NCBI RefSeq assembly: GCF_000248075.1
Contig: NZ_BAFB01000182.1
Coordinates: forward strand, 1 to 64,000
Length of the DNA stretch: 64,000 nt
Direction of reading: 5' to 3'
Origin: Gordonia otitidis NBRC 100426
Lineage (GTDB): Bacteria > Actinomycetota > Actinomycetes > Mycobacteriales > Mycobacteriaceae
Of this stretch, positions 48,274 through 64,000 are shown in pieces. Under the pieces are notes generated by a model. That model saw nothing but the letters and a program-made list of their open reading frames with translations, was not told the origin of the DNA and searched no databases. Each line of letters begins with the position of its first letter. The stretch's first letter is position 1. Both the position numbers and the translations under genes were made by a program.

Positions 48274-48456
48274 GTGCGGTAGGTCGACCGCCGATCGCGC
48301 CGCGTGGACGTTGTGGCGGACCTCGCGGCTGCAACCTCCGTTGATCGGCCCGCGCGTGGGCTCAGGAGGCATCCGAGCAGAGGTCAAACGCCCGCCGATC
48401 AAGTATCAAACGCCCCGGCGATCGGGTCCTCGAACGTCGGCGCGCAGAATGACCTC

Positions 48457-49644
48457 ATGAAGATCTCGCACCGCGCGCAGCAGGTCGCTCCGTTCTACGC
48501 GATGGAGTTCGCGAGCAGGGCCGTCGCCGTCGAGTCGCGGGGGCGGCGCGTGATCCGACTCAACATCGGCGAACCCGACTTCGGTGCACCACCCGCGTTT
48601 CTCGCCGCGGCACGGGAGGTTACCGACGGTCGACCGCTGACCTACACGGGCGCGCTCGGCCTGCCGGAGTTGCGTGAGTCCATCGCCGATTTCTATCGTC
48701 ACCACTTCCGCGCTGACGGAGTCACCGCGGCGAACGTCGCGGTGACCTCCGGAGCGTCCGCAGCACTGCTCCTCGCATGCGCGACCCTGATCGACGAGGG
48801 CGACGACGTACTGATCGGCGATCCGTCGTACCCCTGCAATCGACAGTTCGCCCAGGCATTCGGCGCGCGCGTGCAACTGGTGCCCACCGGGGTTCCCGAA
48901 CGGTTCCAACTCACGGCTGACGCAGTCGACGCCGCGTGGAGCGATGACACCCGCGGCGTCATCGTGGCGTCGCCATCGAATCCGACCGGCACATCGCTGC
49001 GTCACGACGAGCTCACCGACCTGTGCCACCGTGTCTCCGCGCGCGGCGGATGGAGCATCGTCGACGAGATCTATCTGGGGTTGTCGGATCCCGGTGCCGA
49101 CGGCCGCCCGCCGCGCAGCGTCCTCGCCGATCAGTCACTGTCGTCGGACGTCGTTGTGGTCAACAGCTTTTCGAAGTACTTCGGCATGACCGGTTGGCGA
49201 CTCGGGTGGTGCATTCTGCCAGCGGACGTCGTCGACGCCGTCGAACGTCTCGCGCAGAACTTCTACGTGTGCCCGCCCACCCCTGCGCAGTTCGCCGCGC
49301 TGAGTTGCTTCACCCCCGAATCGCTTGCGGTGTGCGAGGACCGGCGGCGCCAGTTCGTTCAGCGGCGCCAGCTCGTCCTCGACGCGCTCACCCCGACGGC
49401 GCTGAAGATACCGGTGGCCCCCGACGGCGCGTTCTACGTCTACATCGATGTTTCCGAGACGGGACTCGACTCGTGGGAGTTCTGCGAGCGCGCACTCACA
49501 GAAGCACATGTAGCCCTCACTCCCGGAAAGGATTTCGGCATCGCGACAGCTGACCGTTATGTGCGGCTCTCCTATGCCGCGTCGACCGCCGACCTCACCG
49601 AAGGCCTGGACAGGATCGCACACTTCGTCGAAGGACTCGCATGA
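48457..49644 (+). CDS. Class I/II pyridoxal-phosphate aminotransferase
   Basis: 395 residues. The PLP lysine is in VNSFSKYFGMTGWRLGW; further fold-type I residues are seen in NIGEPDFGAPP, SGASAALLLA and SPSNPTGTSL. Similar to aspartate-type aminotransferases of mycobacteria. The substrate is not fixed by sequence. The ATG at 48457 is preferred over a long upstream frame because it begins MKISHRAQQVAPF, the usual family start. Its stop overlaps the next gene's start by four bases. Confidence 0.88.
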   Translation: MKISHRAQQVAPFYAMEFASRAVAVESRGRRVIRLNIGEPDFGAPPAFLAAAREVTDGRPLTYTGALGLPELRESIADFYRHHFRADGVTAANVAVTSGASAALLLACATLIDEGDDVLIGDPSYPCNRQFAQAFGARVQLVPTGVPERFQLTADAVDAAWSDDTRGVIVASPSNPTGTSLRHDELTDLCHRVSARGGWSIVDEIYLGLSDPGADGRPPRSVLADQSLSSDVVVVNSFSKYFGMTGWRLGWCILPADVVDAVERLAQNFYVCPPTPAQFAALSCFTPESLAVCEDRRRQFVQRRQLVLDALTPTALKIPVAPDGAFYVYIDVSETGLDSWEFCERALTEAHVALTPGKDFGIATADRYVRLSYAASTADLTEGLDRIAHFVEGLA

Positions 49645-50853: not shown

Positions 50854-51241
50854 ACCCAGCGGCCGTCGACGTGCCGTGGCCGCACGGCTCATCCGACCGA
50901 TCTCACCCATCGCACACGCTCCGACGGCACCGTCTCGAGCACCGTGGTGTCGAATCCGCGACCGGCGGAAACGGAATTCGGGCACCCCACCCGAGTCACG
51001 ACTACCGCTCACGTCCTCCGTCTACCAGCCCGCGAGTCCGTCGGTGGTGGTCAACGCCTGATACACATCCTGTGTAGTGGCGCCGTCGATGCCGACTCTG
51101 TGCGGGATGTCGCTTATCGGGCACTCCCTGTCTCGTGTGAAGGTGTCGTGATGTCGTTCGGAAGGCGTCGTGAAGGATCGAGACCTGAGAGCGAGGTCGT
51201 CTCACTGCGCCGAAGCGGGTGCACGGGCTACGGTCGAAGAC
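50854..51241. promoter_or_regulatory. 388-nt gap before the class II aldolase gene
   Basis: No gene is supported. A perfect 15-bp palindrome TACACA-TCC-TGTGTA (51062-51076) lies about 165 bp before the aldolase gene and could be an operator. TACGGT at 51229-51234 is a candidate -10 element seven bases before the aldolase GTG. Confidence 0.4.
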
Positions 51242-51898
51242 GTGGACATCGTCGATCAGCGGGTACCCCTGTGCGTCGCCGCGCATCACCTGGCGGCGGC
51301 AGGCAAGTCGCTGAGCACTGGCGGAAACCTGTCGGTGCGCGTCGGCGATCACGTTCTGGTCACCCCGTCCGGTGCCCGACTCGACTCCGTACAGCCCGGT
51401 CAGTTGGTCGTCGTCGACATGAACGGCACTGTCGTCGTGGAGACCCGCTACCGCCCGACCGCCGAGCTGCAGTTCCACCTCGACCTGTACCGGTCGACGT
51501 CGGCGTCGGCGATCGCTCACGCACACCCGCTCGCGTCGGTAGCGGTGTCGGCGATCACCGAGGTCCTCCCGCCCATCCACTACGACGCCGCGATGGTCGG
51601 CGGCTCGGTCAGGGTCGCACCCTATGCGGTGTTCGGCAGTCCAGAATTGAGCAAGTACGTCGTCGACGCGCTGTTTGAACGCACCGCCGCACTCATGCGA
51701 AACCACGGCTCGGTCGCCATCGGCGGCAACATCGAGACCGCATGCGAGCACCTCGGCGTCGTCGAATGGCTCAGCGAGGTCTACCTCAAGGCCGTCAGCG
51801 CCGGCGCGCCCGCTGTCCTCGGCGACGAGCACCTCACCGAGGTCGTCGCCACCGCCGCGCGCCGGGCCTACCGCCCCTACCCCGGCCACGATCGCTGA
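51242..51898 (+). CDS. Class II aldolase/adducin-family protein (L-fuculose-phosphate aldolase-like)
   Basis: 218 residues from the GTG at 51242, the size of FucA-type enzymes; an upstream in-frame GTG at 51170 adds 24 residues without family look. The zinc ligands are HAHP in the AIAHAHPLASVAVS segment and a third His in MRNHGSVAIG. It cleaves a sugar phosphate to dihydroxyacetone phosphate or glycolaldehyde products. The -10-like TACGGT directly before the start points to a leaderless transcript. It precedes the catabolic operons. Confidence 0.85.
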   Translation: MDIVDQRVPLCVAAHHLAAAGKSLSTGGNLSVRVGDHVLVTPSGARLDSVQPGQLVVVDMNGTVVVETRYRPTAELQFHLDLYRSTSASAIAHAHPLASVAVSAITEVLPPIHYDAAMVGGSVRVAPYAVFGSPELSKYVVDALFERTAALMRNHGSVAIGGNIETACEHLGVVEWLSEVYLKAVSAGAPAVLGDEHLTEVVATAARRAYRPYPGHDR

Positions 51899-52050: not shown

Positions 52051-53394
52051 ATGGTCGGCAACACCACGACGACACAGGTCGAGGTTCTCATCGTGGGTGC
52101 GGGCCAGGCAGGCATCGCGATGAGCGAGCACCTCAGCGCTCAGGGCATCGGTCATCTCGTGGTCGAACGCGACCGCGTCGCGGAGCGATGGCGCACCTGG
52201 CGTTGGGACTCACTCGTGGCTAACGGCCCGGCGTGGCACGACCGGTTCCCCGGAATGCAGTTCGCGGTCGATCCCGACGCCTTCGCGACGAAGGACCAGG
52301 TCGCCGACTACCTGAACGCCTATGCGCAGCAGATCGGTGCACCCATCCGGACCGGTGTGGAAGTAACGTCGGTTCGCAAGAAGCAGGGCGACAACGGTTT
52401 TCACGTCGAGACGTCCGACGGACCGATCGAGGCGGGGTTCGTGGTGGCAGCCACCGGCGCATTCCAGACACCTGTCATCCCCGACGTCGTGCCGCGCGAG
52501 GCGCCCCTGCATCAGATCCACTCGAGCGACTACCACAATCCCGAAGAACTGCCTGACGGCGGCGTCCTCGTGATCGGCGCCGGATCGTCCGGCGTACAGA
52601 TCGCAGCCGAACTCCGCGCCTCCGGTCGCCCGACCCATCTCGCCGTCGGCCCGCACGATCGACCTCCGCGCAGCTATCGTGGCCGCGACTTCTGTTGGTG
52701 GCTGGGTGTTCTCGGAAAATGGGACGCTGCCGCACCGCCCGTCGGGGCAGAGCACGTGACCATCGCCGTCAGCGGTGCAGGCGGCGGGCACACCGTCGAC
52801 TTCCGTGACCTCGCGGCGAGCGGCATCACCCTGCTCGGCCGCGCAGAACACTTCGACGGCACGACGATGACCTTCGCACCGGACCTGCGCACGAACATCG
52901 AGAACGGCGATGCAAGCTACCTTGCGATGCTGCGCGAAGCCGACGACTACATCGCCCGCAACGGACTCGACCTGCCCGCCGAACCGCAAGCGCATCAACT
53001 CGGGCCACTCCCCGACTGTGTCACGGACCCGATCTCCCATCTCGACCTCGCCGCGGCCGGGATCACGACCATCGTGTGGGCCACCGGGTTCGCCTACGAC
53101 TACAGCTGGCTCCGCGTCGACGCATTCGACGACCGGGGCAGGCCGATCCACCAGCGCGGCGTCTCCCCCGAATCCGGCGTGTACTTCCTCGGGTTGCCGT
53201 GGTTGTCGCGGCGTGGATCGAGCTTCATCTGGGGCGTGTGGCACGACGCCAAGTACCTGGCCGACCAGATCGCCATCCAGCGCGGCTATCTGGCCTACCG
53301 CCCGGATCGTCACCAGGAGAGCATCCCGGCACCGACACAGACATCGGCACAGCACAACGACTCCGATGCTCTTGCCACACAAGCAATGTCCTGA
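52051..53394 (+). CDS. FAD/NAD(P)-dependent monooxygenase or oxidoreductase
   Basis: 447 residues. Two dinucleotide folds, EVLIVGAGQAGIAMSEHL (start) and VLVIGAGSSGVQIAAEL (about 173), define a CzcO/FMO-like flavoprotein monooxygenase. The ATG at 52051 has the ribosome-binding site GGAGG eight bases upstream. First gene of an operon with RidA, DUF1028, an M20 hydrolase and aspartase. It could hydroxylate a nitrogen heterocycle such as imidazole acetate; that is an inference from the pathway, not from the sequence. Confidence 0.85.
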   Translation: MVGNTTTTQVEVLIVGAGQAGIAMSEHLSAQGIGHLVVERDRVAERWRTWRWDSLVANGPAWHDRFPGMQFAVDPDAFATKDQVADYLNAYAQQIGAPIRTGVEVTSVRKKQGDNGFHVETSDGPIEAGFVVAATGAFQTPVIPDVVPREAPLHQIHSSDYHNPEELPDGGVLVIGAGSSGVQIAAELRASGRPTHLAVGPHDRPPRSYRGRDFCWWLGVLGKWDAAAPPVGAEHVTIAVSGAGGGHTVDFRDLAASGITLLGRAEHFDGTTMTFAPDLRTNIENGDASYLAMLREADDYIARNGLDLPAEPQAHQLGPLPDCVTDPISHLDLAAAGITTIVWATGFAYDYSWLRVDAFDDRGRPIHQRGVSPESGVYFLGLPWLSRRGSSFIWGVWHDAKYLADQIAIQRGYLAYRPDRHQESIPAPTQTSAQHNDSDALATQAMS

Positions 53395-53430
53395 CCCGGT
53401 CCACCCATCTCAGCAGGAGGAGCATCCCGT

Positions 53431-53883
53431 ATGAGCGCAGCAGTCAGCCCTGACGTCACACACACCCGCATCCGACCCTTCAACACCCGTGACACCTACC
53501 CGGAGCAGAATCTCGACAACGACCTGTGCCAGGCCGTCGTCGCGGGCGGCGTGGTCTATCTGCGCGGTCAGATCGGGCAGGACCTCGACACCCGCGAGTC
53601 GGTCGGCATCGGCGACGTCGAGGCGCAGGCAGAGAAGGCGATGAGCAACATCGCCATGCTCCTCGACGAGGCGGGCAGTTCTCTGCGCGACATCGTCAAG
53701 GTCACCGTCTACCTCACCGACATCCGCTACCGCGAGACGGTCTATCGCGTGATGGGCCGGTGGCTCAAGGGCGTGTACCCGGTCTCGACCGGTCTCGTCG
53801 TCGACGCGCTTGCACGGCCGGAATGGCTCGTCGAGATCGACGCAACCGCCGTACTCAGCGAACAGGCGGGCGCAGAGCGATGA
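53431..53883 (+). CDS. RidA/YjgF/Rid-family enamine/imine deaminase
   Basis: 150 residues. Rid-type trimer-forming fold with conserved GGVVYLRGQIGQDL, DIVKVTVYLTDIRYRE and GLVVDALARPEWLVEIDATAV. RidA proteins hydrolyse reactive enamines/imines formed by amine-releasing enzymes. GGAGG lies eight to ten bases upstream. Its stop codon overlaps the start of the DUF1028 gene by four bases. Confidence 0.93.
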   Translation: MSAAVSPDVTHTRIRPFNTRDTYPEQNLDNDLCQAVVAGGVVYLRGQIGQDLDTRESVGIGDVEAQAEKAMSNIAMLLDEAGSSLRDIVKVTVYLTDIRYRETVYRVMGRWLKGVYPVSTGLVVDALARPEWLVEIDATAVLSEQAGAER

Positions 53884-54554
53884 CGATGTCCCTCGTCGCC
53901 CGCGACGCGGAGAGCGGCGCGTTCGGCATCGTCGTGTGTTCGTCGAGCCCCGCGGTTGCCGCTCGCTGCGCCCACGTACGCCCGGGTGTGGGTGTCGTCG
54001 CCTCACAGAATGTCACCAACCCGGCACTCGGCCCCGCGGTCCTCGACGGTCTGGCCGACGGACTCGGCGCCGAGAAGGCACTCGCCACAGCACTGTCGGA
54101 AGAGTCGCACGCCGAGTACCGCCAGGTCACCGTGGTGGACGCCAACGGGGCGACAGCGCTGCATTCGGGACCTCGTAGTCTCGGCATTTACGGCGGCCTC
54201 GAGGGCGATCAGGCCGTTGCAGCGGGAAACATGCTCGCCGACGTCGCGGTGCTCGACGCTCTGATGTCCGGTTATGCACAGAGCACGGCGGATGCTCTCG
54301 AGCGGCGATTGCTCGACGGGCTCCGCACCGCGCTGGAGGCGGGAGGCGAGGAGGGGCCGGTACATTCGGCGGGCCTCGTCGTCGTCGAGGACGTTGCGTG
54401 GCCGGTGACGGATCTGCGTGTCGACTTCGCCGACGACCCGCTCGCCGATCTCAGCGCGCTGTGGGATATCTGGCGTCCGCAGAAGAACGATTATCGCGTG
54501 CGCGGTGTCGACCCGACCCGCGCTCCCTCCTACGGGGTTCCGGGGGACCTGTGA
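53880..54554 (+). CDS. DUF1028 Ntn-hydrolase-like protein
   Basis: 224 residues, MTMSLVARDAESGAFGIVVC at the start, then ARPGV-type GVGVVASQNVTNPALG and GIYGGLEGDQAVAAGNML. DUF1028 proteins have an Ntn-hydrolase-like fold and are of unknown activity; they often sit beside RidA and M20 hydrolases in catabolic clusters. The stop overlaps the GTG of the next gene (GTGA). Strict co-translation with its neighbours suggests a shared pathway step. Confidence 0.88.
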   Translation: MTMSLVARDAESGAFGIVVCSSSPAVAARCAHVRPGVGVVASQNVTNPALGPAVLDGLADGLGAEKALATALSEESHAEYRQVTVVDANGATALHSGPRSLGIYGGLEGDQAVAAGNMLADVAVLDALMSGYAQSTADALERRLLDGLRTALEAGGEEGPVHSAGLVVVEDVAWPVTDLRVDFADDPLADLSALWDIWRPQKNDYRVRGVDPTRAPSYGVPGDL

Positions 54555-55804
54555 GCACCGTCGACGACGCACTGCGTACCAGGACAGACAGATCGCACGC
54601 CGACCTGATCGCGCTCTCCCACGATCTGCACGCGCACCCCGAAACCGCCTGGGAGGAAACCTATTCGGCCGCGCGGGTCGCCGGCGCGCTCGCCGACTCC
54701 GGTTTCACTGTCGCAGAAAGCTGGTGTGGACTCGACACCGCGTTCACCGCGAGCATCGGCAACGGCGACCTGCACATCGCCCTTTGCGCCGAATACGACG
54801 CCCTGCCGGGCCTCGGCCACGCGTGCGGGCACAACCTGATCTCCGCGATCACGGTCGGCGCAGCACATGCACTGGCTCCACTGGTCGACGATCTCGGAGT
54901 CACGTTGACCGTCATCGGCACCCCTGCCGAAGAAGGCGGCGGCGGCAAGATCGAACTGCTGGAGCGGGGCGGGTTCGACGGTCAGCACGCCGCCGCGATG
55001 GTCCATCCCGGCCCGGCCGACGTTGCCCGTGCGCGACCTTTCGCTGTGTCGCACAGCCACATCGACTACCGCGGAAAGTCGGCGCACGCCGCGGCATACC
55101 CCGAGCGCGGCGTGAACGCCGCGGACGCCTTCACCATCGCACAGGTGGCCATCGGGCTGCTGCGGCAACAACTCCCGTCCTCCGTTCGCGTGCACGGCAT
55201 GATGACGCGCGGTGGCGAGGCCCCCAATTCCATCGCCGAACACACCGAGGGACGCTGGTACGTACGCGCCGAGACGCTGGCCGAACTCGCCGAGGTCGAA
55301 CCCCGCGTCATGCGGTGCTTCGAGGCTGGAGCACTCGCCAGCGGAGCGTCGCTGACGGTGACCCCCGAATCCAAGCCGTACGCCGAGTTCCGCACCGACG
55401 AGGAGCTTCTCGGCTGCTACGAACGGCGCGCTCTCGCCGCTGGACGTCGATTCGGCTCCGGCCCCGACGCCACCATGGCGCGCGCGTCGACCGATATGGG
55501 CAACGTCTCGCAGGTTCTTCCCTCGATACACCCCTACATCGGGATCGATTCGCTTCCCGCAGTCAATCATCAGCCCGAATTCGCAGCCGCGACGCTCACC
55601 GCCGCGGCCGAGGCCGCCATCGCTCAGGGTGCTCTGGCGCTCGCGGGCACAGTGGTCGATGCCGCACAGGTCGACTCGATCCGCACGCGGCTGATGACGC
55701 AAGGGACATTGAGCACGCAGGATGCAGAGCTCTCAGACGGCACGGAGTATCCGGGGATCGCCGTGCGCGCGGGCCGCACAGCACGATTCGAGTCCGACAC
55801 ATGA
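54551..55804 (+). CDS. M20-family amidohydrolase/metallopeptidase
   Basis: 417 residues from the GTG at 54551 (GGGGG upstream). Metal ligands are visible in ALPGLGHACGHN (Cys92-Gly-His94) and GTPAEEGGGG (Glu127/128); an insertion with the dimerisation domain follows. The family removes acyl, carbamoyl or formyl groups from amino acids or cleaves p-aminobenzoyl-glutamate-like amides. A longer upstream frame runs through the previous gene but lacks a suitable start. Ends with an ATGA overlap onto aspA. Confidence 0.9.
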   Translation: MSTVDDALRTRTDRSHADLIALSHDLHAHPETAWEETYSAARVAGALADSGFTVAESWCGLDTAFTASIGNGDLHIALCAEYDALPGLGHACGHNLISAITVGAAHALAPLVDDLGVTLTVIGTPAEEGGGGKIELLERGGFDGQHAAAMVHPGPADVARARPFAVSHSHIDYRGKSAHAAAYPERGVNAADAFTIAQVAIGLLRQQLPSSVRVHGMMTRGGEAPNSIAEHTEGRWYVRAETLAELAEVEPRVMRCFEAGALASGASLTVTPESKPYAEFRTDEELLGCYERRALAAGRRFGSGPDATMARASTDMGNVSQVLPSIHPYIGIDSLPAVNHQPEFAAATLTAAAEAAIAQGALALAGTVVDAAQVDSIRTRLMTQGTLSTQDAELSDGTEYPGIAVRAGRTARFESDT

Positions 55805-57219
55805 TCGCTGACGGCCGCGATGCTGTGCGCATCGAACACGACCTGCTCGGCGACCGCGAGGTACCCGCCGATGCGTACTACGGCGTGCACACCGTCCGGG
55901 CGATCGAGAATTTCCCCATCAGTTCCGTACCGATATCGACCCACGCCGACCTCGTAGTCGCGCTCGCGGCGGTGAAACAGGCTGCCGCAGAGACGAACCG
56001 GGCGCTCGGAACTCTCGATCCGAGGATTGCCGACGCCATCGTCGCGGCATGTGCCGAGATCCGTTGCGGAGCACTGCACGAGCAGTTCGTCGTCGACCAG
56101 ATCCAGGGTGGGGCCGGGACATCGACGAACATGAACGCCAACGAGGTGATCGCGAACAGGGCGCTCGAACTGCTCGGCCACTCCCGCGGCGAGTACCAGG
56201 TGGTACATCCGCTCGAGCATGTGAACCTCGGTCAGAGCACCAATGACGTCTATCCGACAGCGGTGAAGGTCGCGCTCGGCGCCGCTGCAAGCGACCTGTC
56301 GGCTGCGCTGCGCGCGCTCGCCACCGAGTGCTCGGAGAAATCCCTCGAGTTCGGCGGAATACTCAAACTCGGTCGCACGCAACTCCAGGACGCGGTGCCG
56401 ATGACGCTCGGTCAGGAGTTCGGTGCGTTCGCGGTCACGATCGGCGAGGACGCCGACCGGATCGACGAGGCCATCAGCCTCATCGCCGAGATCAACCTGG
56501 GCGGCACCGCGATCGGCACCGGACTCAACACCCATCCGGCATACGCTGCGGGTGCGTGCGAACGTCTGCGACGCATCACCGGTCTGCCGTTGACCACCGC
56601 GGGCGACCTCGTCGAAGCGACGTCCGACGTGGGATCCTTCGTGCAACTGTCGGGCGTCACCAAACGCGCCGCCGTCAAGCTGTCGAAGATCTGCAATGAC
56701 CTGCGTCTGCTGTCGTCTGGTCCACGAGCGGGTTTCGGCGAGATCGTGCTACCGCCGGTGCAGGCCGGATCGAGCATCATGCCGGGCAAGGTCAATCCGG
56801 TCATCCCCGAGGTTGTCAACCAGGTCGCTTTCGAGGTGATCGGCAACGACCTCACCGTCACACTCGCCGCCGAGGCAGGACAGTTGCAGCTCAACGCATT
56901 CGAGCCCGTCATCGCCCGCGCGCTGCTGTCGTCTCTGACGCACCTGAGCGCCGCGGTGCGCGTCCTCGGTGAGCGGTGTATCCGCGGGATATCGGCTCGC
57001 GAGGAACGCATGCGTGATGCGGTGTTCACCTCCGCGAGTATCGCGACAGCCCTGAACCCGGTCCTCGGCTACGAGGCCACCACAGCACTTGTCGCCGAGG
57101 CGATCGCCACAGGCTCGTCGATCCCCGACCTCGTCCGACGTTCGGCTCTACTCGACGACGACGCACTCGAGCGGGCGTTACACCCCGACAACCTGTGTCG
57201 ACCGCGCACGGTCGAGTAG
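55801..57219 (+). CDS. aspA: Aspartate ammonia-lyase (fumarase/aspartase superfamily)
   Basis: 472 residues from the ATG at 55801. The signature GSSIMPGKVNP and the catalytic-Ser loop, GGAGTSTNMNANEV, GQSTNDVYPT and LGRTQLQDAVP place it with class II aspartases: L-aspartate to fumarate and ammonia. (Fumarase C has a similar GSSIMPGKVNP, but the overall fit is to AspA.) It is last in the operon and would feed aspartate from a catabolic route into the TCA cycle. Start overlaps the M20 stop. Confidence 0.9.
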   Translation: MIADGRDAVRIEHDLLGDREVPADAYYGVHTVRAIENFPISSVPISTHADLVVALAAVKQAAAETNRALGTLDPRIADAIVAACAEIRCGALHEQFVVDQIQGGAGTSTNMNANEVIANRALELLGHSRGEYQVVHPLEHVNLGQSTNDVYPTAVKVALGAAASDLSAALRALATECSEKSLEFGGILKLGRTQLQDAVPMTLGQEFGAFAVTIGEDADRIDEAISLIAEINLGGTAIGTGLNTHPAYAAGACERLRRITGLPLTTAGDLVEATSDVGSFVQLSGVTKRAAVKLSKICNDLRLLSSGPRAGFGEIVLPPVQAGSSIMPGKVNPVIPEVVNQVAFEVIGNDLTVTLAAEAGQLQLNAFEPVIARALLSSLTHLSAAVRVLGERCIRGISAREERMRDAVFTSASIATALNPVLGYEATTALVAEAIATGSSIPDLVRRSALLDDDALERALHPDNLCRPRTVE

Positions 57220-57231
57220 CCGACGTCGCGG

Positions 57232-57846
57232 TCACGGCGCGAGCGTGCCGGCCAGGGCCGGGCAGTTCAGTGCCGTTTGCAGATACGTTGTGACCGCCGA
57301 TCGCGCACGCTTCGCGTCGAGTGCGCCGTTGTGTCCGACGACATGGATGCCGCAGCCGTCCTCGAGGGCCACCACGGTCGTGGCGATGAGGTCGCTGTCG
57401 ACCTCGGCGAAGACCTTCATCGAGATACCCGCGTCGATCACTTCGCGGTACAACGAGGATTCGAGTTCGAACAGCGACGACATCAGCTCTGCGTGGGCAC
57501 TCACCCGTGCGCTGTGCAGATGGAGTTCGTAGAGTGCCGGCGACATCGGGTCCTCGGGATCGCAGATGCCGAGATCGATCAGAATGCGCAGGCGGGTGAC
57601 GGGATCGGAACTCTGCGCGATCGCCGTCCGCCGACTCTCGTAGAAGCGGTCGACGGCCGCTTCGTGTACCGCGAGCAACAATTCCTCGATACCGGGGAAG
57701 TAATAGCTGATCAGTCCGGGCGAGAGCCCTGCGGCGTCGGCGATGTCCTTGAGACGCAGCCCGATCAAGCCGCGCGCTGCGATGGCCGTGGTCGCGGCAT
57801 CGACGATCTCGACGCGGCGCGCCTGTTGATTTCTGGGGCGTGCCAT
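57232..57846 (-). CDS. TetR-family regulator, operon-adjacent
   Basis: 204 residues from the ATG at 57846 (MARPRNQQARR); an ATG at 57870 would add eight. HTH region LKDIADAAGLSPGLISYYF and the all-helical C-terminus with four cysteines. It faces aspA convergently and is divergent from the amine-dehydrogenase gene. The best candidate operator is ATTCTTTG-N10-CAAAGAAT at 58055-58080. Likely represses the dehydrogenase operon until an amine or aldehyde ligand binds. Confidence 0.88.
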   Translation of the reverse strand: MARPRNQQARRVEIVDAATTAIAARGLIGLRLKDIADAAGLSPGLISYYFPGIEELLLAVHEAAVDRFYESRRTAIAQSSDPVTRLRILIDLGICDPEDPMSPALYELHLHSARVSAHAELMSSLFELESSLYREVIDAGISMKVFAEVDSDLIATTVVALEDGCGIHVVGHNGALDAKRARSAVTTYLQTALNCPALAGTLAP

Positions 57847-57960
57847 GGTTTCCGATAGTGCCCTGCCCATGCGGCAACGAGCAACCCCGCCCGAGTCCAG
57901 AACCCCGACGCTGCTTCCGGAGTCCGGATATCGGGTGTCGGGTCTCGAGTTGCCGGGTTA

Positions 57961-58179: not shown

Positions 58180-60282
58180 ATGCGCGACCCTCGCTACGAC
58201 GTTCTATTCGAACCGGTCACGATCGGACCGGTCACGGCCCGCAACCGCTTCTTCCAGGTGCCGCACTGCAACGGGATGGGATACCGCGATCCGTCAGGTG
58301 AGGCAGCGATGCGGCGTGTGAAAGCCGAAGGCGGGTGGGCCGTCGTCTGCACCGAACAGGTCGAGATCCATCCGACCTCCGACATCGGACCGTTCATCGA
58401 GCTGCGGCTCTGGGACGATCAGGACATGCCGGCGATTGCGCGTATCGCCGAGCAGATCCACGAGGGTGGTGCACTCGCAGGAATCGAGCTGGCACACAAC
58501 GGGCTCAACAGTCCCAACCTGATCAGTCGGGAGACTCCACTCGCTCCGCAGCATCTGCCGGTCGTCTCCTGGAACCTCGATCCGGTGCAGGCACGCGCGA
58601 TGACCAAGTCCGATATCGTCGATCTGCGCAAGTGGCATGCCGACTCGGTCCACCGGTCGCTGAAAGCCGGCTACGACATCGTCTATGTCTACGCCGGTCA
58701 CGCCATCGGCGGACTTCACCACTTCCTGTCCCCCCGATACAACAACCGCACCGACGAGTACGGCGGCAGCCTGGAGAACCGCGTGCGTCTGATCCGCGAG
58801 ATCCTCGAGGACACCCGCGAGATCGCCGACGGGAAAGCCGCAGTCGCGTGCCGTATCTCGGTCGACGAACTCCTCGGCGACGAGGGGATCACCCGAGCCG
58901 AGATGGAAGAGGTCTTCGGTCTGATCGGGGAGCTCCCCGACCTGTGGGATCTGGTGTTGGGCAGTTGGGAAGATGATTCGGTCACTTCACGATTCGGCCC
59001 CGAAGCCGAGCAGGAACCGTTCGTCACAGGTCTCAAGCAGCTCACCACGAAGCCGGTCGTCGGCGTCGGACGGTTCACATCCCCCGACACCATGGTCCGT
59101 CACGTACGCAGCGGCGTACTCGACCTGATCGGAGCCGCGCGACCGTCGATCGCAGACCCGTTCATGCCCAACAAGATAGAACGCGGCGATCTCGCGGACA
59201 TCAGGGAATGCATCGGGTGCAACATCTGCGTATCCGGCGACTTCACGATGTCACCGATCCGCTGCACCCAAAATCCAACTATGGGCGAGGAGTTCCGACG
59301 CGGCTGGCATCCCGAACGTATCGCGGTCAAGGGTTCGGATTCGTCGGTGCTCATCGTCGGTGCCGGGCCGGCAGGCCTGGAAGCCGCTCGCGCACTGGGT
59401 AATCGCGGCTACTCGGTGACCGTCACCGAGGCGAGTCGAACGCTCGGAGGTCGTGTCGCGCGGGAATCCAAGCTGCCGGGACTGTCAGCGTGGATTCGCG
59501 TGATCGACTATCGCCTCCAGCAACTCGATCGGCTCGACAACGTCGACGTCTACCGCGAGTCACCGATGACCACCGACGACATTCTGGAGTACGGATTCGA
59601 TCACGTCGTGATCGCCACGGGGGCGTCGTGGCGATCCGACGGCGTCGGTCGCTGGCACACACATCCCATCGAGGTCGATTCGGCTGCAGAGGTTCTCACC
59701 CCGGACGACATCATGGCAGGCACACGTCCGCGGGGACCACGTGTCGTCCTCTTCGACGACGACCATTATTACCTCGGTGCGGTGATCGCGGAACTGCTCG
59801 CCAAGGAGGGCTATGCCGTCACCCTCGTGACGCCGGTTCCCCAGGTCTCCCAGTGGACCACCAACACCATGGAGGCACACCGCATCCGAGCCAGGATCAT
59901 CGAGGCGGGCGTCGAGGTCCGCACCGACACCGCGGTCACGGCGGTCTCGTCGAACGGTGTCACAACCGCCTGCAGGTTCACCGGGCGTACAGGCCATCTC
60001 GACGCTGACGCCGTGGTCATGGTGACCGCCCGCCTCCCCCACGACGAGTTGTACACCGAACTGCACTCGCGTAGTGACGACTGGTCTGCGGCGGGGGTGC
60101 GCGGCGTGACCGGCATCGGCGACGCCTGGGCTCCGTCGACCATCGCGGCGGCAGTCTGGTCGGGGCACCGCTTCGCCGAGGAACTCGACGCTCCCCGCAA
60201 CGATGATCCGGTGCCCTTCCGGCGGGAGGTCACCCAAATGTCGATCGAGCCCATATTCGGATCACCTGCTCCGGTCTCCTGA
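58180..60282 (+). CDS. Amine dehydrogenase, 6-S-cysteinyl-FMN/4Fe-4S type (histamine dehydrogenase-like)
   Basis: 700 residues, colinear with trimethylamine dehydrogenase (TMADH): an N-terminal TIM barrel holding FMN, then a Rossmann FAD/NAD-fold domain (VLIVGAGPAGLEAARALG). Cys30 in VPHCNG is the flavin-linking Cys, and Cys344-347-350-362 (CIGCNIC then CTQNP) hold the 4Fe-4S cluster. The TMADH substrate bowl (Tyr60, Trp264, Trp355) is here Gln60, Trp263 and Asp354. As I recall, the same replacements occur in histamine dehydrogenase (Gln65, Trp267, Asp358). It would convert a primary amine such as histamine to aldehyde plus ammonia, passing electrons to ETF. The ATG at 58180 matches the family start. 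Confidence 0.92.
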   Translation: MRDPRYDVLFEPVTIGPVTARNRFFQVPHCNGMGYRDPSGEAAMRRVKAEGGWAVVCTEQVEIHPTSDIGPFIELRLWDDQDMPAIARIAEQIHEGGALAGIELAHNGLNSPNLISRETPLAPQHLPVVSWNLDPVQARAMTKSDIVDLRKWHADSVHRSLKAGYDIVYVYAGHAIGGLHHFLSPRYNNRTDEYGGSLENRVRLIREILEDTREIADGKAAVACRISVDELLGDEGITRAEMEEVFGLIGELPDLWDLVLGSWEDDSVTSRFGPEAEQEPFVTGLKQLTTKPVVGVGRFTSPDTMVRHVRSGVLDLIGAARPSIADPFMPNKIERGDLADIRECIGCNICVSGDFTMSPIRCTQNPTMGEEFRRGWHPERIAVKGSDSSVLIVGAGPAGLEAARALGNRGYSVTVTEASRTLGGRVARESKLPGLSAWIRVIDYRLQQLDRLDNVDVYRESPMTTDDILEYGFDHVVIATGASWRSDGVGRWHTHPIEVDSAAEVLTPDDIMAGTRPRGPRVVLFDDDHYYLGAVIAELLAKEGYAVTLVTPVPQVSQWTTNTMEAHRIRARIIEAGVEVRTDTAVTAVSSNGVTTACRFTGRTGHLDADAVVMVTARLPHDELYTELHSRSDDWSAAGVRGVTGIGDAWAPSTIAAAVWSGHRFAEELDAPRNDDPVPFRREVTQMSIEPIFGSPAPVS

Positions 60283-60305: not shown

Positions 60306-61961
60306 ATGATGTATGCCGATCACATCGTCACCAATGCCATGGTCTGGCAACCGCCGGGCGTCGCGCCCGCAGACACGGTGGCGATTGCCGATGGCGTCAT
60401 CGTCGCCGTGGGCACCGGCGTCGACCGCGATCTCGTTGCCGCAACGACCGAGATGCATGACCTCGGCGGAGCGAGTCTGCTACCCGGCTTCATCGACGCC
60501 CATGTGCATCCGGTGGCGGGCGGGCTCGCGGCGCTTCGCTGCGATCTGTCGGAGTTGGCGCACGATCGCCGCGGCTATCTCGACGCCGTCGCCGCGTTCG
60601 CCAGATCGCATCCCGAAGCACCTGTCATCACCGGGAGTGGTTGGTACGGAGATGCTTTCGAGGGCGGGCTACCCACAAAGGCAGACCTCGATGCCGTCGT
60701 CGACGATCGCCCCGTCGTTCTCTCGAGTCACGACGGTCACGGTGTGTGGGTCAACGGGATCGCGCTGCGGATCGCCGGCATCGACCGCCATACCCCTGAC
60801 CCGACCGGCGGCCGGATCGAGCGTGACGCCGACGGAGAACCGACCGGTGTGTTGTTCGAACGGGCTGCCGACGCAGTGCAGGCCCTCACGCCGGCGATCG
60901 ACGACGCGACGTTGCGTGAGGCGCTGCTGGTCGCGCAGCGTCGACTGCACTCGGTGGGTGTCACCGGCTGGCAGGACGCAGGCGTAGACATCCCCGCCTT
61001 CGGCCTCTCGGACACTCTCGCCACCTATCTCGCCGCCGACGAGGCGGGCGAGCTCACTGCCCGTGTGTGCGGAGCTCTGTGGTGGGCCGCAGCGTCGGGA
61101 GCCGGTCAGATCGACACGCTGCGCGAGCGGCGGGACGCGGCTCGGACGGGGCGCCGATTCCATGTCGACACGGTCAAGGTGATGCAGGACGGAATCTGCG
61201 AGAACTGCACTGCGGCAATGCTCTCCCCGTACTCCGAACTACCGTCGGGTGCCGATGCCATGGGACTGTCGTTCCTCGAGCCGGACGAGCTGAACGAGAT
61301 CTGCTCGCTTCTGGCGACCGACAGGTTTCACATCCACATGCATGCGGTAGGTGACCGGGCGGTCCGCGAGTGCCTCGACGGTCTCGCGGCAGCGCGGACC
61401 GCGAATCCACGGTTCGCGGCGGTACATCAGATCGCGCATCTCGATGTCGTCGACCCGAACGACATCCCGCGGTTCGCGGCGCTCGACGTGATGGCCAACA
61501 TCCAGGCGCTGTGGGCCCGCCGTGACACCGAGATCATCGAGCGCAAGCTGCCGCTGCTGGGTCCCGGCCGCGAGCGCTGGCACTTCCCGTTCGGTTCGAT
61601 CAGCGCGGCCGGCGGTGCGCTCGCGATGGGCAGCGACTGGCCGGTCACCGACCCCAACCCGCTCTGGGCGATCCACACGGCGGTCAATCGCACCGGCTCG
61701 CAGTCGGATCCGCACGCGATCGGCGACGAGGCCCGCACCGTGCCGCTCGTCAGAGAAGAAGCGTTGTCGCTGCGCACCGCGGTGGACGCGTACACGATCG
61801 GAGCGGCCCGCGCCGCACACTGCGCGGACCGCTCCGGGTCGATCGAGGTCGGCAAGGACGCCGATCTGGTGGCGTTGTCGGGAGACATCACCGCGGTCGA
61901 CGACATCGGTTGCCTGAGCGCGCGTATGACGATGGTCGGCGGAGCAGTGGTGGCCCGATGA
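60306..61961 (+). CDS. Amidohydrolase, YtcJ/N-substituted formamide deformylase-like
   Basis: 551 residues. Metal site LLPGFIDAHVHP (His66-x-His68), HIHMHAVGDRAVRE (two His) and MGSDWPVTD (Asp) form the amidohydrolase-3 centre. The YtcJ group contains N-substituted formamide deformylase, which fits removal of formyl or formimino groups in an imidazole pathway; this is inference. ATGATG at 60306 follows GGGAG. It lies 23 nt after the dehydrogenase gene, so it is co-transcribed with it. Confidence 0.9.
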   Translation: MMYADHIVTNAMVWQPPGVAPADTVAIADGVIVAVGTGVDRDLVAATTEMHDLGGASLLPGFIDAHVHPVAGGLAALRCDLSELAHDRRGYLDAVAAFARSHPEAPVITGSGWYGDAFEGGLPTKADLDAVVDDRPVVLSSHDGHGVWVNGIALRIAGIDRHTPDPTGGRIERDADGEPTGVLFERAADAVQALTPAIDDATLREALLVAQRRLHSVGVTGWQDAGVDIPAFGLSDTLATYLAADEAGELTARVCGALWWAAASGAGQIDTLRERRDAARTGRRFHVDTVKVMQDGICENCTAAMLSPYSELPSGADAMGLSFLEPDELNEICSLLATDRFHIHMHAVGDRAVRECLDGLAAARTANPRFAAVHQIAHLDVVDPNDIPRFAALDVMANIQALWARRDTEIIERKLPLLGPGRERWHFPFGSISAAGGALAMGSDWPVTDPNPLWAIHTAVNRTGSQSDPHAIGDEARTVPLVREEALSLRTAVDAYTIGAARAAHCADRSGSIEVGKDADLVALSGDITAVDDIGCLSARMTMVGGAVVAR

Positions 61962-61999: not shown

Positions 62000-62941
62000 T
62001 CAGCGAGAGGCCGCTGCGGCGCGGGATGCGGAGTCGCCGAACAGATCACGGCACAGTTCGGCGACCACCGCGGCGCGCCGCGTCGGCCGCGCGGCGATGG
62101 CGTTCAACAGGACCATGGTCAACGCGGGTGTCTCGTCGGCGATGGGTACCGCAGCGACCGGATGCCCGTCGAGAGCCGTCGGGACCGCCGACTTCAGGTT
62201 GAGCACCGTGTAGGCCAGCCCGCGTCCGACGAGTGCACGGCACGTCTCCACCGTGGTCGACCGATACCGCACGAGGGGTTCCACGTCGGCGCTGGCGAAC
62301 ACCTGCCGGAAGTAGTCGCGGCTGTGCGGGAGGTCGAGCAGCGCCATGGGCTCGTCTGCCAACTCGGCGAGCCGGATCTTCCGACGATTGGCCAACCGGT
62401 GCGAACCCGCGAGGAGTACGTAGGGCGGAACCCGCCGCAACGGCCAGCGCTTCAGGCGCGGGTCGTCGACGAGGTCGTATCCGATGCCCATCTCGAAGGT
62501 TCCGTTCGCGACACCTTCCGCGAGATCGGCGAGATCGACCTCCGTCGTCAGCAGTTCCAGGTTCGGAAGCTTCTCGGCGGCAACGGACAACAGTTCCGGA
62601 AGCAGGTAGGGAGCAATGACCTCGAAACATCCGATGCTGAGGGTCCCGGTGAGCGACCCGCCCAGTCCGTGTGCGACAGAACGAAGATCAGCCGCCGATG
62701 CCAACAGTTGACGACTCGCGACAAGGAGTTGACGGCCCGCTGGAGTCAACGTGATCCCCTTGGCGTGATGCCGTACCAGAAGCTGGATTCCGAGCGCGGC
62801 CTCCAGATCCGTCAGCGCCGTCGACATCGCCGACTGGGACAGATGCACCGCCGAGGCCGCGCGCGTGATGCTCCCGGCCTCGGCCACGGCGACGAAGTAC
62901 TCCAATTGTCGCAACGTGTAGTCGGCCACGACGCCCCTCAC
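62000..62941 (-). CDS. LysR-family transcriptional regulator
   Basis: 313 residues from the GTG at 62941, with GAGGA five to nine bases upstream; ATGs at 62953 and 62959 would add four and six residues but lie inside the palindromic LysR box. N-terminal HTH: LRQLEYFVAVAEAGSITRAASAVHLSQSAMSTAL. The C-terminal part is a periplasmic-binding-like inducer domain (VPPYVLLAGSHRLANR). Convergent with the amidohydrolase and divergent from the permease; it is the natural owner of the three ATC-N9-GAT boxes. Confidence 0.88.
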   Translation of the reverse strand: MRGVVADYTLRQLEYFVAVAEAGSITRAASAVHLSQSAMSTALTDLEAALGIQLLVRHHAKGITLTPAGRQLLVASRQLLASAADLRSVAHGLGGSLTGTLSIGCFEVIAPYLLPELLSVAAEKLPNLELLTTEVDLADLAEGVANGTFEMGIGYDLVDDPRLKRWPLRRVPPYVLLAGSHRLANRRKIRLAELADEPMALLDLPHSRDYFRQVFASADVEPLVRYRSTTVETCRALVGRGLAYTVLNLKSAVPTALDGHPVAAVPIADETPALTMVLLNAIAARPTRRAAVVAELCRDLFGDSASRAAAASR

Positions 62942-62950
62942 TGAGATCCT

Positions 62951-62979
62951 CATTGGCATCGGCTCCGTCGATGCCAATG
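62951..62979. promoter_or_regulatory. Candidate LysR box 3, a 29-bp perfect palindrome
   Basis: CATTGGCATCG (62951-62961), spacer GCTCCGT, CGATGCCAATG (62969-62979): 11-bp arms without mismatch. The core CATCGGCTCCGTCGATG (62957-62973) is ATC-N9-GAT. It overlaps possible lysR starts, so it could also control lysR itself; the permease starts 109 bp further on. Confidence 0.72.
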
Positions 62980-63087
62980 CCGCACAACCTCGACTCTACA
63001 GAATTCTCATCCGGTCCGGACGCAGTCCGGTCACCGCACCGCAACCACATCAGACGCCGTCGCGTCGATACACACAGGAGCACGACC

Positions 63088-64000
63088 ATGGGAATTACCC
63101 ACAGCGATGTCGGAGCGTTGACCCCCGACATCGCCCAGACACATACCGATCTCCGACATTCGTTGCGGCGCTTCGATGTTCCTATCATGATCCTGTCCGC
63201 CCTCATCAGTCTCGACATGGTCGGCGAGATCTCGTCGTTCGGCGGCGAGACGTTCACCTGGCTCGTGGTGTTGGCACTGCTGTGGATGGTCCCTTACGGC
63301 CTGGTGACGTCGGAGTTGGGAAGCGCGTTTCCCGACGAGGGCGGGCTGTTCGAATGGGTCAAGCGGGCGTTCGGTCGTCTACCCGCATCCGTCGCCACGG
63401 TGATGTACTGGTCGATCAATCCCCTGTGGATCGGCGGCTCTCTCGCCTTCATCAGCACCGAGGCATGGAGTTCGTTCATCCATCCCATCGACGCCGGCAC
63501 CGGCGGCGACTACGTCTTCAAAACCGTGTTCGTGCTGATCGCCGTCGCCGTCACCCTGCTATCGATGCGCCAGGCCAGGGCAGTACTCAAACTCGGCACC
63601 TATCTGAAGTTGATCCTGGCCGCGGTGTTCCTGGTGACCACACTGGTCTACGGGATCCAGAACGGATTTCACGGGATCGGCTCTGTCACCTGGTCACCGA
63701 CCCTCGGCGGATTCCTCGGTCTGGTACCCCTGCTCCTGTTCTCACTCGTGGGTTTCGAGGTTCCCAGCCAGGCAGGCGGGGAAATGCAGAATCCCCAGCG
63801 CGACGTCCCGCGCGGCATCGCGATGAGCGGATTCGTCGGCCTCCTCGTGTACGCGCTGCCCGTCCTAGCGCTGCTCCTGGTTCTGCCGACCGACAAGATC
63901 ACCGGTATCGGCGGTTTCATGGCGGCACTCGACACCGTGTTCGGCGTATACGGCTCTGCGGCATCGATCCTGGTGAAGATCGCGGTCATCGCGTTCATCG
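63088..64000 (+). CDS. APC-family amino acid/amine permease (3' end outside the window)
   Basis: At least 304 residues from the ATG at 63088 (AGGAG upstream). Helix 1 region PIMILSALISLDMVGEISSF, then SELGSAFPDEGGLFEWVKRAFG (the APC Gly-containing unwound region) and GFEVPSQAGGEMQNPQRDVP, the APC signature between helices 6 and 7. It imports an amino acid or a biogenic amine. Next to lysR and the amine-catabolic genes with a shared LysR box, so it probably feeds that pathway. Truncated at the right edge. Confidence 0.92.
   Translation, partial: MGITHSDVGALTPDIAQTHTDLRHSLRRFDVPIMILSALISLDMVGEISSFGGETFTWLVVLALLWMVPYGLVTSELGSAFPDEGGLFEWVKRAFGRLPASVATVMYWSINPLWIGGSLAFISTEAWSSFIHPIDAGTGGDYVFKTVFVLIAVAVTLLSMRQARAVLKLGTYLKLILAAVFLVTTLVYGIQNGFHGIGSVTWSPTLGGFLGLVPLLLFSLVGFEVPSQAGGEMQNPQRDVPRGIAMSGFVGLLVYALPVLALLLVLPTDKITGIGGFMAALDTVFGVYGSAASILVKIAVIAFI

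Follow-up and report, generated by a model that had tools for sequence, protein, structure and literature searches.

The genes around positions 58180–60282 of a DNA stretch from Gordonia otitidis NBRC 100426 were analyzed. The stretch (the window, 64,000 nucleotides) is the first 64000 bases of contig NZ_BAFB01000182.1 (designated C92, 82949 bases), and the genes beyond its end were also read. Genes were called by scoring the open reading frames (ORFs) for G+C content at third codon positions (GC3). The ORF at 58180–60282 encodes a flavoprotein resembling histamine dehydrogenase (HADH), and it lies among genes resembling the hin genes for histamine degradation in Pseudomonas.

The flavoprotein encoded at 58180–60282

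The N-terminus of the protein (MRD) aligned with the start of the histamine dehydrogenase of Rhizobium sp. 4-9 (6de6). The best match in the Protein Data Bank (PDB) was the HADH of Nocardioides simplex (3k30; 1050 bits, 67% aligned identity), followed by the Rhizobium enzyme (875 bits, 56%), 6l6j (681 bits, 48%), trimethylamine dehydrogenase (TMADH; 543 bits, 41%) and 2,4-dienoyl-CoA reductase (1ps9; 111 bits). A score of 1050 bits indicated a resemblance far beyond chance. Alignment with the N. simplex enzyme and TMADH, as envisaged in an earlier note on this DNA, placed the protein closer to the former. The nearest relatives were those of Gordonia jacobaea (93% identity) and G. polyisoprenivorans (90%).

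The cofactor residues named in that note, Cys30 and Cys344/347/350/362, were all found at these numbers in the 700-aa ORF. Cys30, aligned with the Cys of TMADH and HADH, is the predicted site for 6-S-cysteinyl flavin mononucleotide (FMN). The other four form the 4Fe-4S motif C-x2-C-x2-C-x11-C, and the cluster loop (CVSGDFTMSPIRC) aligned without gaps with that of 3k30 (CVSGDLTMSPIRC). Y171, H174 and D266 aligned with Tyr, His and Asp of 3k30 and TMADH (1djn, 2tmd), which we take, from their role in TMADH, to be the catalytic triad; the Asp266 column is Cys in 6de6.

Eight residues have been proposed for the histamine site of N. simplex HADH in the available part of PMC10180351 (2023): Gln65, Ile74, Phe77, Glu79, Asn115, Tyr181, Trp267 and Asp358. 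Seven are conserved in the 58180–60282 protein, as Gln60, Ile69, Phe72, Glu74, Asn110, Trp263 and Asp354; Tyr181 is replaced by Ile176. In addition, Asp265 is Gly in 3k30. The Rhizobium enzyme shares the first five residues (Gln60/Ile69/Phe72/Glu74/Asn110, designated QIFEN) together with W263, D354 and D265, and differs in having Phe176.

The 3k30 alignment paired Gln60, Trp263 and Asp354 with Gln65, Trp267 and Asp358, just as the earlier note had stated. Its further claim, that Trp355 of TMADH is replaced by Asp, stood in part: Asp354 is present, and its pairing with Trp355 rests on gap placement. HMMER set Trp355 against a gap, HMMER and MAFFT both paired Glu356 with Asp354, and the loop is one residue shorter than in TMADH. 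Tyr60 of TMADH is Gln in this protein.

An ordinary 2,4-dienoyl-CoA reductase or TMADH would have the same fold and the same Pfam domain (Oxidored_FMN). The low score of 1ps9 against that of HADH, and the replacement of the TMADH pocket (Y/D/R/S/H) by Q/I/F/E/N, left this explanation with a negligible probability.

Another explanation, a dehydrogenase or demethylase for some other heterocyclic or N-methylated amine, was raised by 6l6j, the 6-hydroxypseudooxynicotine amine oxidase of Pseudomonas geniculata N1. This entry is titled HisD and shares the fold and the Fe-S cysteines, yet its substrate is 6-hydroxypseudooxynicotine. This indicated that family resemblance alone fails to fix the substrate. 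On the other hand, 6l6j has Ala30 for Cys30 and E/H/L/D/S for Q/I/F/E/N, whereas at these positions the 58180–60282 protein agrees with HADH, and its neighbors are Hin-like. We considered a substrate of this kind very unlikely.

The predicted structure matched N. simplex HADH with VIA Z 45.5 over 635 aligned residues, at a whole-chain root mean square deviation (rmsd) of 21.5 Å. The rmsd was about 21 Å to all full-length relatives listed, which suggests a domain shift within the model. The predicted local distance difference test (pLDDT) score was below 50 at residues 265–271 and 344–379. Because of these two features, the model was rejected as proof of pocket geometry.

Neighboring genes and the Hin pathway

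Table 1. Features of the window and of the adjoining part of contig C92 (FAD, flavin adenine dinucleotide; OYE, old yellow enzyme)
Feature	Position	Strand	Remarks
Aminotransferase	48304–49644		in window
Class II aldolase/adducin	51170–51898		directly upstream of the monooxygenase
FAD-dependent monooxygenase (FMO), HinF-like, putative imidazoleacetate monooxygenase EC 1.14.13.5	52051–53394	+	start codon uncertain, alternative 51976
RidA-family enamine/imine deaminase, HinL-like	53431–53883	+	below the cut-off of its nearest NCBIfam model
DUF1028 protein (PF06267), HinH-like ('amidase') by operon order	53880–54554	+	solved relative 2imh
M20-family amidohydrolase at HinG operon position	54551–55804	+	start codon uncertain
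Aspartate ammonia-lyase, HinI-like (aspartate to fumarate)	55801–57219	+	703 bits to NF008909, cut-off 510
TetR/BetI-type regulator	57232–57870	-	divergent from dehydrogenase, between 52051–57219 operon and dehydrogenase
Histamine dehydrogenase-like flavoprotein, OYE/TMADH fold	58180–60282	+	ORF, ATG start, 700 aa
YtcJ-type amidohydrolase (Amidohydro_3)	60306–61961	+	23 bases past dehydrogenase
LysR regulator, putatively HinK-like	62000–62953	-	
APC-family permease, putatively HinA-like importer	62971–63999	+	runs on to contig position 64608
GMC oxidoreductase	C92 64672–66213	-	beyond window
NCS1-type permease	C92 66210–67646	-	beyond window
Aldehyde dehydrogenase	C92 67945–69267		about 4 kb beyond window end

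In the Pseudomonas route, as given in the accessible text of PMC8231116, HinA imports histamine, HinC and HinD convert it to imidazoleacetate, and HinF, HinL, HinH and HinG turn imidazoleacetate into aspartate, from which fumarate is then formed. The operon order is hinF-L-H-G, and HinK is a LysR regulator sensing imidazoleacetate. The accessible text of PMC6467879 describes HinF as an FAD-monooxygenase (EC 1.14.13.5), HinL as an enamine deaminase, HinH and HinG as amidases (HinG EC 3.5.1.8), and HinI as an aspartate ammonia-lyase. It gives GenBank AWA45227–AWA45230 for HinF, HinL, HinH and HinG of P. putida U.

The window operon (FMO-RidA-DUF1028-M20) follows this published order, and so do the FMO, RidA, DUF1028 and ArgE-like M20 genes of Pseudomonas paracarnis (L126). 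The identities between the two were 67% for FMO, 63% for RidA and 49% for DUF1028. These values resemble those reported between P. putida and Brevibacterium (HinF 60–63%, HinL 61–65%, HinH 48–50%; PMC6467879, in part), which supported a Hin-like reading of the operon. The aldehyde dehydrogenase, APC permease and LysR regulator of the window and C92 were likened by class to HinD, HinA and HinK.

In Pseudomonas putida U and P. aeruginosa PAO1, the hin set comprises hinFLHG, hinI, hinK, hinA and hinCD. The window shares with it the classes FMO, RidA, DUF1028 and M20, in the same operon order and joined by the aspartase, and also a LysR regulator and an APC permease. It differs in its entry enzyme, a putative histamine dehydrogenase where the Pseudomonas set has the aminotransferase HinC, in its added TetR and YtcJ genes, in its M20 subfamily, and in holding all of them in one cluster. 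Brevibacterium, an actinobacterium that grows on histamine, has HinADFGHIL homologues as a further likeness. Its entry enzyme is given in the accessible text of PMC6467879 as a HinC-like aminotransferase or a copper histamine oxidase, with no histamine dehydrogenase named there, and in this it differs from the window.

From the 67% identity, the seven matching pocket residues and the Hin-type neighbors, we interpreted the protein, with high confidence, to be a histamine dehydrogenase that would feed a Hin-type pathway in place of HinC. The gene context, on which the earlier note is silent, was the strongest evidence. The histamine-dehydrogenase-like active site proposed in that note was thus supported. 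As such a dehydrogenase would stand beside the genes for using its breakdown product, the bacterium is probably able to live on histamine.

The direct observations concern the sequence and its residues, the order of the genes, conservation, and co-occurrence; the enzymatic steps that follow are proposed from homology and context. Histamine would be oxidized at the covalent 6-S-cysteinyl FMN (Cys30) to imidazole acetaldehyde and ammonia, and an electron-transferring flavoprotein (ETF) would receive the electrons by way of the 4Fe-4S cluster. ETF is the electron acceptor of TMADH. ETF genes adjoin the cluster at a QIFEN plasmid locus (L136), which fits ETF as the acceptor here. The aldehyde dehydrogenase would convert imidazole acetaldehyde to imidazoleacetate, which FMO would hydroxylate. 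Between them, the enzymes RidA, DUF1028 and M20 would open the ring and remove nitrogen and formyl groups to give aspartate, which the aspartase would convert to fumarate. The LysR regulator probably senses imidazoleacetate, and the APC permease probably acts as the importer.

Two other neighbors were of narrow distribution among the loci compared. A TetR homologue (E 1e-15, 60% length) was present only at two Gordonia loci, and a homologue of the class II aldolase/adducin gene only in G. jacobaea (L006).

Signature residues and pathway genes in the relatives

The pocket residues were tabulated with MAFFT for 80 relatives from named records (the best of at least 591), with identities down to 54%. 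Asp354 was present in 79 and Trp263 in 77 of the 80. One locus (L020) has a gap at both columns of this table, and its own tblastn alignment shows D and W. Gln60 was found in 27 relatives (28 counting L020). This indicated that, with Trp263 and Asp354 nearly universal, only Gln60 discriminates within the Gln/Trp/Asp triad. The triad was therefore rejected as diagnostic of histamine dehydrogenase, and the note's claim that exactly this set is distinguishing did not survive.

The QIFEN set, common to both solved histamine dehydrogenases, was found in 21 of the 80 loci. The triad was present in 27, of which 20 had QIFEN and seven did not. These seven (L017, L030, L032, L062, L063, L065 and L069) have different residues elsewhere in the pocket, and neither RidA nor DUF1028 was found in their fetched stretches. 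At the level of sequence, QIFEN thus discriminates the histamine dehydrogenase-type relatives where the triad does not. Percent identity was rejected as a guide: L022 and L024 (64%) have neither signature nor module (the linked pathway genes), and the Rhizobium enzyme, at 56% below several relatives without the signature, has it.

Most of L032–L085 belong to large sister groups of amine dehydrogenases that keep Trp263 and Asp354 and have other pockets (EVYET, EFYES, MVYET, ENAES and others). The dehydrogenase gene of L020 (10001–12064, a metagenome-assembled genome of Burkholderiales) has one early in-frame stop, from a sequencing error or in a pseudogene.

Homologues of the pathway genes were sought within the fetched flanks of the 80 relatives. 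RidA or DUF1028 was found near 16 of the 21 QIFEN loci and near none of the 59 others (Fisher p 8e-13, taking no account of kinship). When only loci with at least 15 kb fetched were counted, the numbers were 13/15 and 0/39. Of the five QIFEN loci without a hit, L010 lies on the same contig as the module, about 16 kb from it, L023 and L060 lie on contigs of 3.1 and 3.7 kb, and the gene of L034 starts at the first base of its contig. L026 was a real miss: in its genome FMO had no match at 1e-40, and the matches to DUF1028 were all distant.

A second sample comprised nine plasmid loci, one per genus, out of 25 listed rows (105 records in all); for one locus, the row had shown an argE gene before selection. 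Eight of the nine had QIFEN, all eight with RidA and DUF1028 and seven with FMO. The ninth (Sinorhizobium meliloti, 55.8% identical, E/L/A/E/H) was without RidA, DUF1028 and FMO. Among the 25 rows, the annotated relatives were named 'FAD-dependent oxidoreductase' or 'NAD(P)-binding protein', in line with the earlier remark that the usual annotation hides this role.

DUF1028 accompanied RidA at every module-bearing QIFEN locus (16/16 in genomes, 8/8 on plasmids). A literature search for DUF1028 turned up no paper, and a functional assignment of this family now seems within reach.

A LysR homologue was present at 23 of the 29 QIFEN loci, at none of the 60 non-QIFEN loci, and at 10 of 12 other module loci. 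The APC permease homologue was found at 8/29 and 0/60 of the QIFEN and non-QIFEN loci, respectively. Homologues of YtcJ, the GMC oxidoreductase and the NCS1 permease were near seven, six and six of the 29 QIFEN loci, none of the 60, and one, one and four of the 12 other module loci. In Mycobacterium sp. AZCC_0083 (L132), FMO, RidA, DUF1028, M20, aspartase, LysR, APC permease and the dehydrogenase all lie within 20 kb.

In the best tree, the QIFEN rows did not form one clade, and relatives of the E60 type without the module (L021, on a 9 kb contig, L022, L024 and L028) were interspersed among them. A tree-based paired test gave three well-supported independent pairs, with 2.6 on average in the same direction and none in the opposite one (sign test p 0.25). 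It thus agreed in direction with the counts, on too few pairs to reach significance. For this test 73 rows were kept, L034 and loci below 7 kb were omitted, and L010 was counted both ways with the same result. L020 was omitted from both trees, and 1djn and 6l6j from the second.

The histamine assignment weighed and the variants of the module

Several observations weigh against the histamine dehydrogenase assignment. Ile176 is the sole mismatch among the eight histamine-site residues, and substitution of Phe176 in the Rhizobium enzyme left the great majority of clones inactive, according to the available part of PMC10180351. At the cluster loop, the structure model has low confidence. The names HinF, HinL, HinH and HinG for the window genes come from operon order and enzyme class. 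The best NCBIfam model for FMO (TIGR04046) gave 366 bits, below its cut-off of 498; RidA also scored below the cut-off of its nearest model, and the aspartase gave 620 bits to the AspA equivalog TIGR00839 (cut-off 681). The nearest solved relatives of the window M20 protein are Xaa-Arg dipeptidase and HmrA, so that its subfamily differs from that of the ArgE-like Pseudomonas protein. Aldehyde dehydrogenase homologues were unspecific (18/29 QIFEN and 13/60 non-QIFEN loci).

Further points of this kind came from the occurrence of the module. Shinella L135 has QIFEN and neither an FMO nor an HpaB homologue in the 26 kb read (tblastn). The Klebsiella pneumoniae plasmid NZ_CP107433 (L148) carries RidA-DUF1028-ArgE with no FMO or HpaB homologue in 12.7 kb. 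A RidA search at E 1e-40 gave matches in three of 296 genomes of the phylum, namely the window's own, G050 and G208; in the latter two (L130 and L131), RidA and DUF1028 are present, the stretch read shows no homologue of FMO or of HpaB, and G050 also has M20 and flavin reductase homologues. This suggested that the RidA-DUF1028 pair by itself is unspecific for imidazoleacetate. The co-occurrence of QIFEN and the module is also partly due to shared ancestry, and kinship inflates the counts.

The objection from Ile176 is tempered by the relatives linked to the module, in which Ile or Leu is common at this site. Among the QIFEN proteins, N. simplex has Tyr here. Phe stands in the Rhizobium enzyme, in seven plasmid proteins and at two SAR324 loci, eight loci of Gordonia, Rhodococcus, Hoyosella and mycobacteria have Ile, and the remainder have Leu.

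Some of these points would suit a broad biogenic amine dehydrogenase, with agmatine, putrescine or another aliphatic amine as the main substrate and histamine oxidized as a side reaction. Agmatine and putrescine are reported substrates of N. simplex HADH (PMC10180351, in the part available), and Ile176 sets the pocket apart from both solved histamine dehydrogenases. An ABC transporter with a solute-binding protein, taken for the polyamine type by look alone, adjoins the QIFEN or near-QIFEN loci L030, L044, L134–L138, L140 and L146. However, the linked ring monooxygenase, RidA, DUF1028, amidohydrolase and aspartase would be superfluous for aliphatic amine routes. The same module also stands beside a primary-amine oxidase in Arthrobacter, and in P. 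paracarnis (L126) no dehydrogenase relative was found by tblastn within the 14 kb read. We considered the aliphatic amine explanation unlikely and kept histamine as the substrate.

The Arthrobacter strain (sp. ERGS1:01) has an FMO-RidA-DUF1028-M20-aspartase block, with an aldehyde dehydrogenase as well as the primary-amine oxidase next to it. Another member of the genus, Arthrobacter globiformis, has a known copper histamine oxidase (cited in the accessible part of PMC6467879). Plasmid modules with neither entry enzyme annotated in the stretch read were found in Mycolicibacterium arabiense, Pseudonocardia, Streptomyces, Acetobacter and Burkholderia multivorans.

The ring hydroxylase varied as well. 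FMO was present in seven of the 16 module-bearing genome loci; the other nine had an HpaB-like oxygenase instead, beside QIFEN dehydrogenases (L009, L011, L012, L019, L020, L025, L031, L040 and L044). A flavin reductase homologue was near six of these nine. The three HpaB-like oxygenases tested gave 213–226 bits to TIGR02309, below the cut-off of 480, and we regard this protein as a candidate second type of imidazoleacetate hydroxylase. The plasmid locus L136 has both FMO and the HpaB-like oxygenase.

Taken jointly, these variants led us to a broader reading, offered tentatively and rated at slightly below even. Histamine degradation may be modular across Actinomycetota, Pseudomonadota and SAR324, with interchangeable entry enzymes and ring hydroxylases around a constant core of RidA and DUF1028, and the five pocket residues may be enough to pick the true histamine dehydrogenases from among a large family of unassigned amine dehydrogenases. 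The entry enzyme would be a QIFEN histamine dehydrogenase, a copper amine oxidase or HinC, and the hydroxylase either FMO, which has one component, or an HpaB-like oxygenase paired with flavin reductase as a two-component system. DUF1028 would open imidazoloneacetate or cut formiminoaspartate. All these parts share the same tentative standing.

The 58180–60282 enzyme is an additional member of a known enzyme family. Among the papers listed, none linked histamine dehydrogenase to hin-type genes by title or abstract opening, which is weak evidence of novelty. Many of the listed titles on histamine dehydrogenase concern histamine measurement in food. Its place in a complete catabolic cluster would assign the enzyme a role in physiology and suggest an electron acceptor that can be tested. 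Two reviews, including PMC8231116 in its accessible text, state that sequenced Gram-positive bacteria lack hin genes; the cluster described here qualifies this statement, and Brevibacterium had been reported earlier (PMC6467879, in part). In the loci read, the five-residue signature predicted the pathway genes better than percent identity did, and it would let annotators rename 'FAD-dependent oxidoreductase' entries. The natural Ile176, Leu176 and Phe176 variants are a supply for sensor enzymes.

Two side observations concern mobile and transport genes. NZ_CP107433 is conjugative, and a DUF1028 homologue (E 1e-40) is present on 105 Klebsiella plasmid records. Relatives of the NCS1-type permease (45–56%) adjoin hin-like modules in Pseudomonas, Burkholderia and Acetobacter (L126, L128, L144 and L147), and the C92 protein is a possible importer of imidazoleacetate or histamine.

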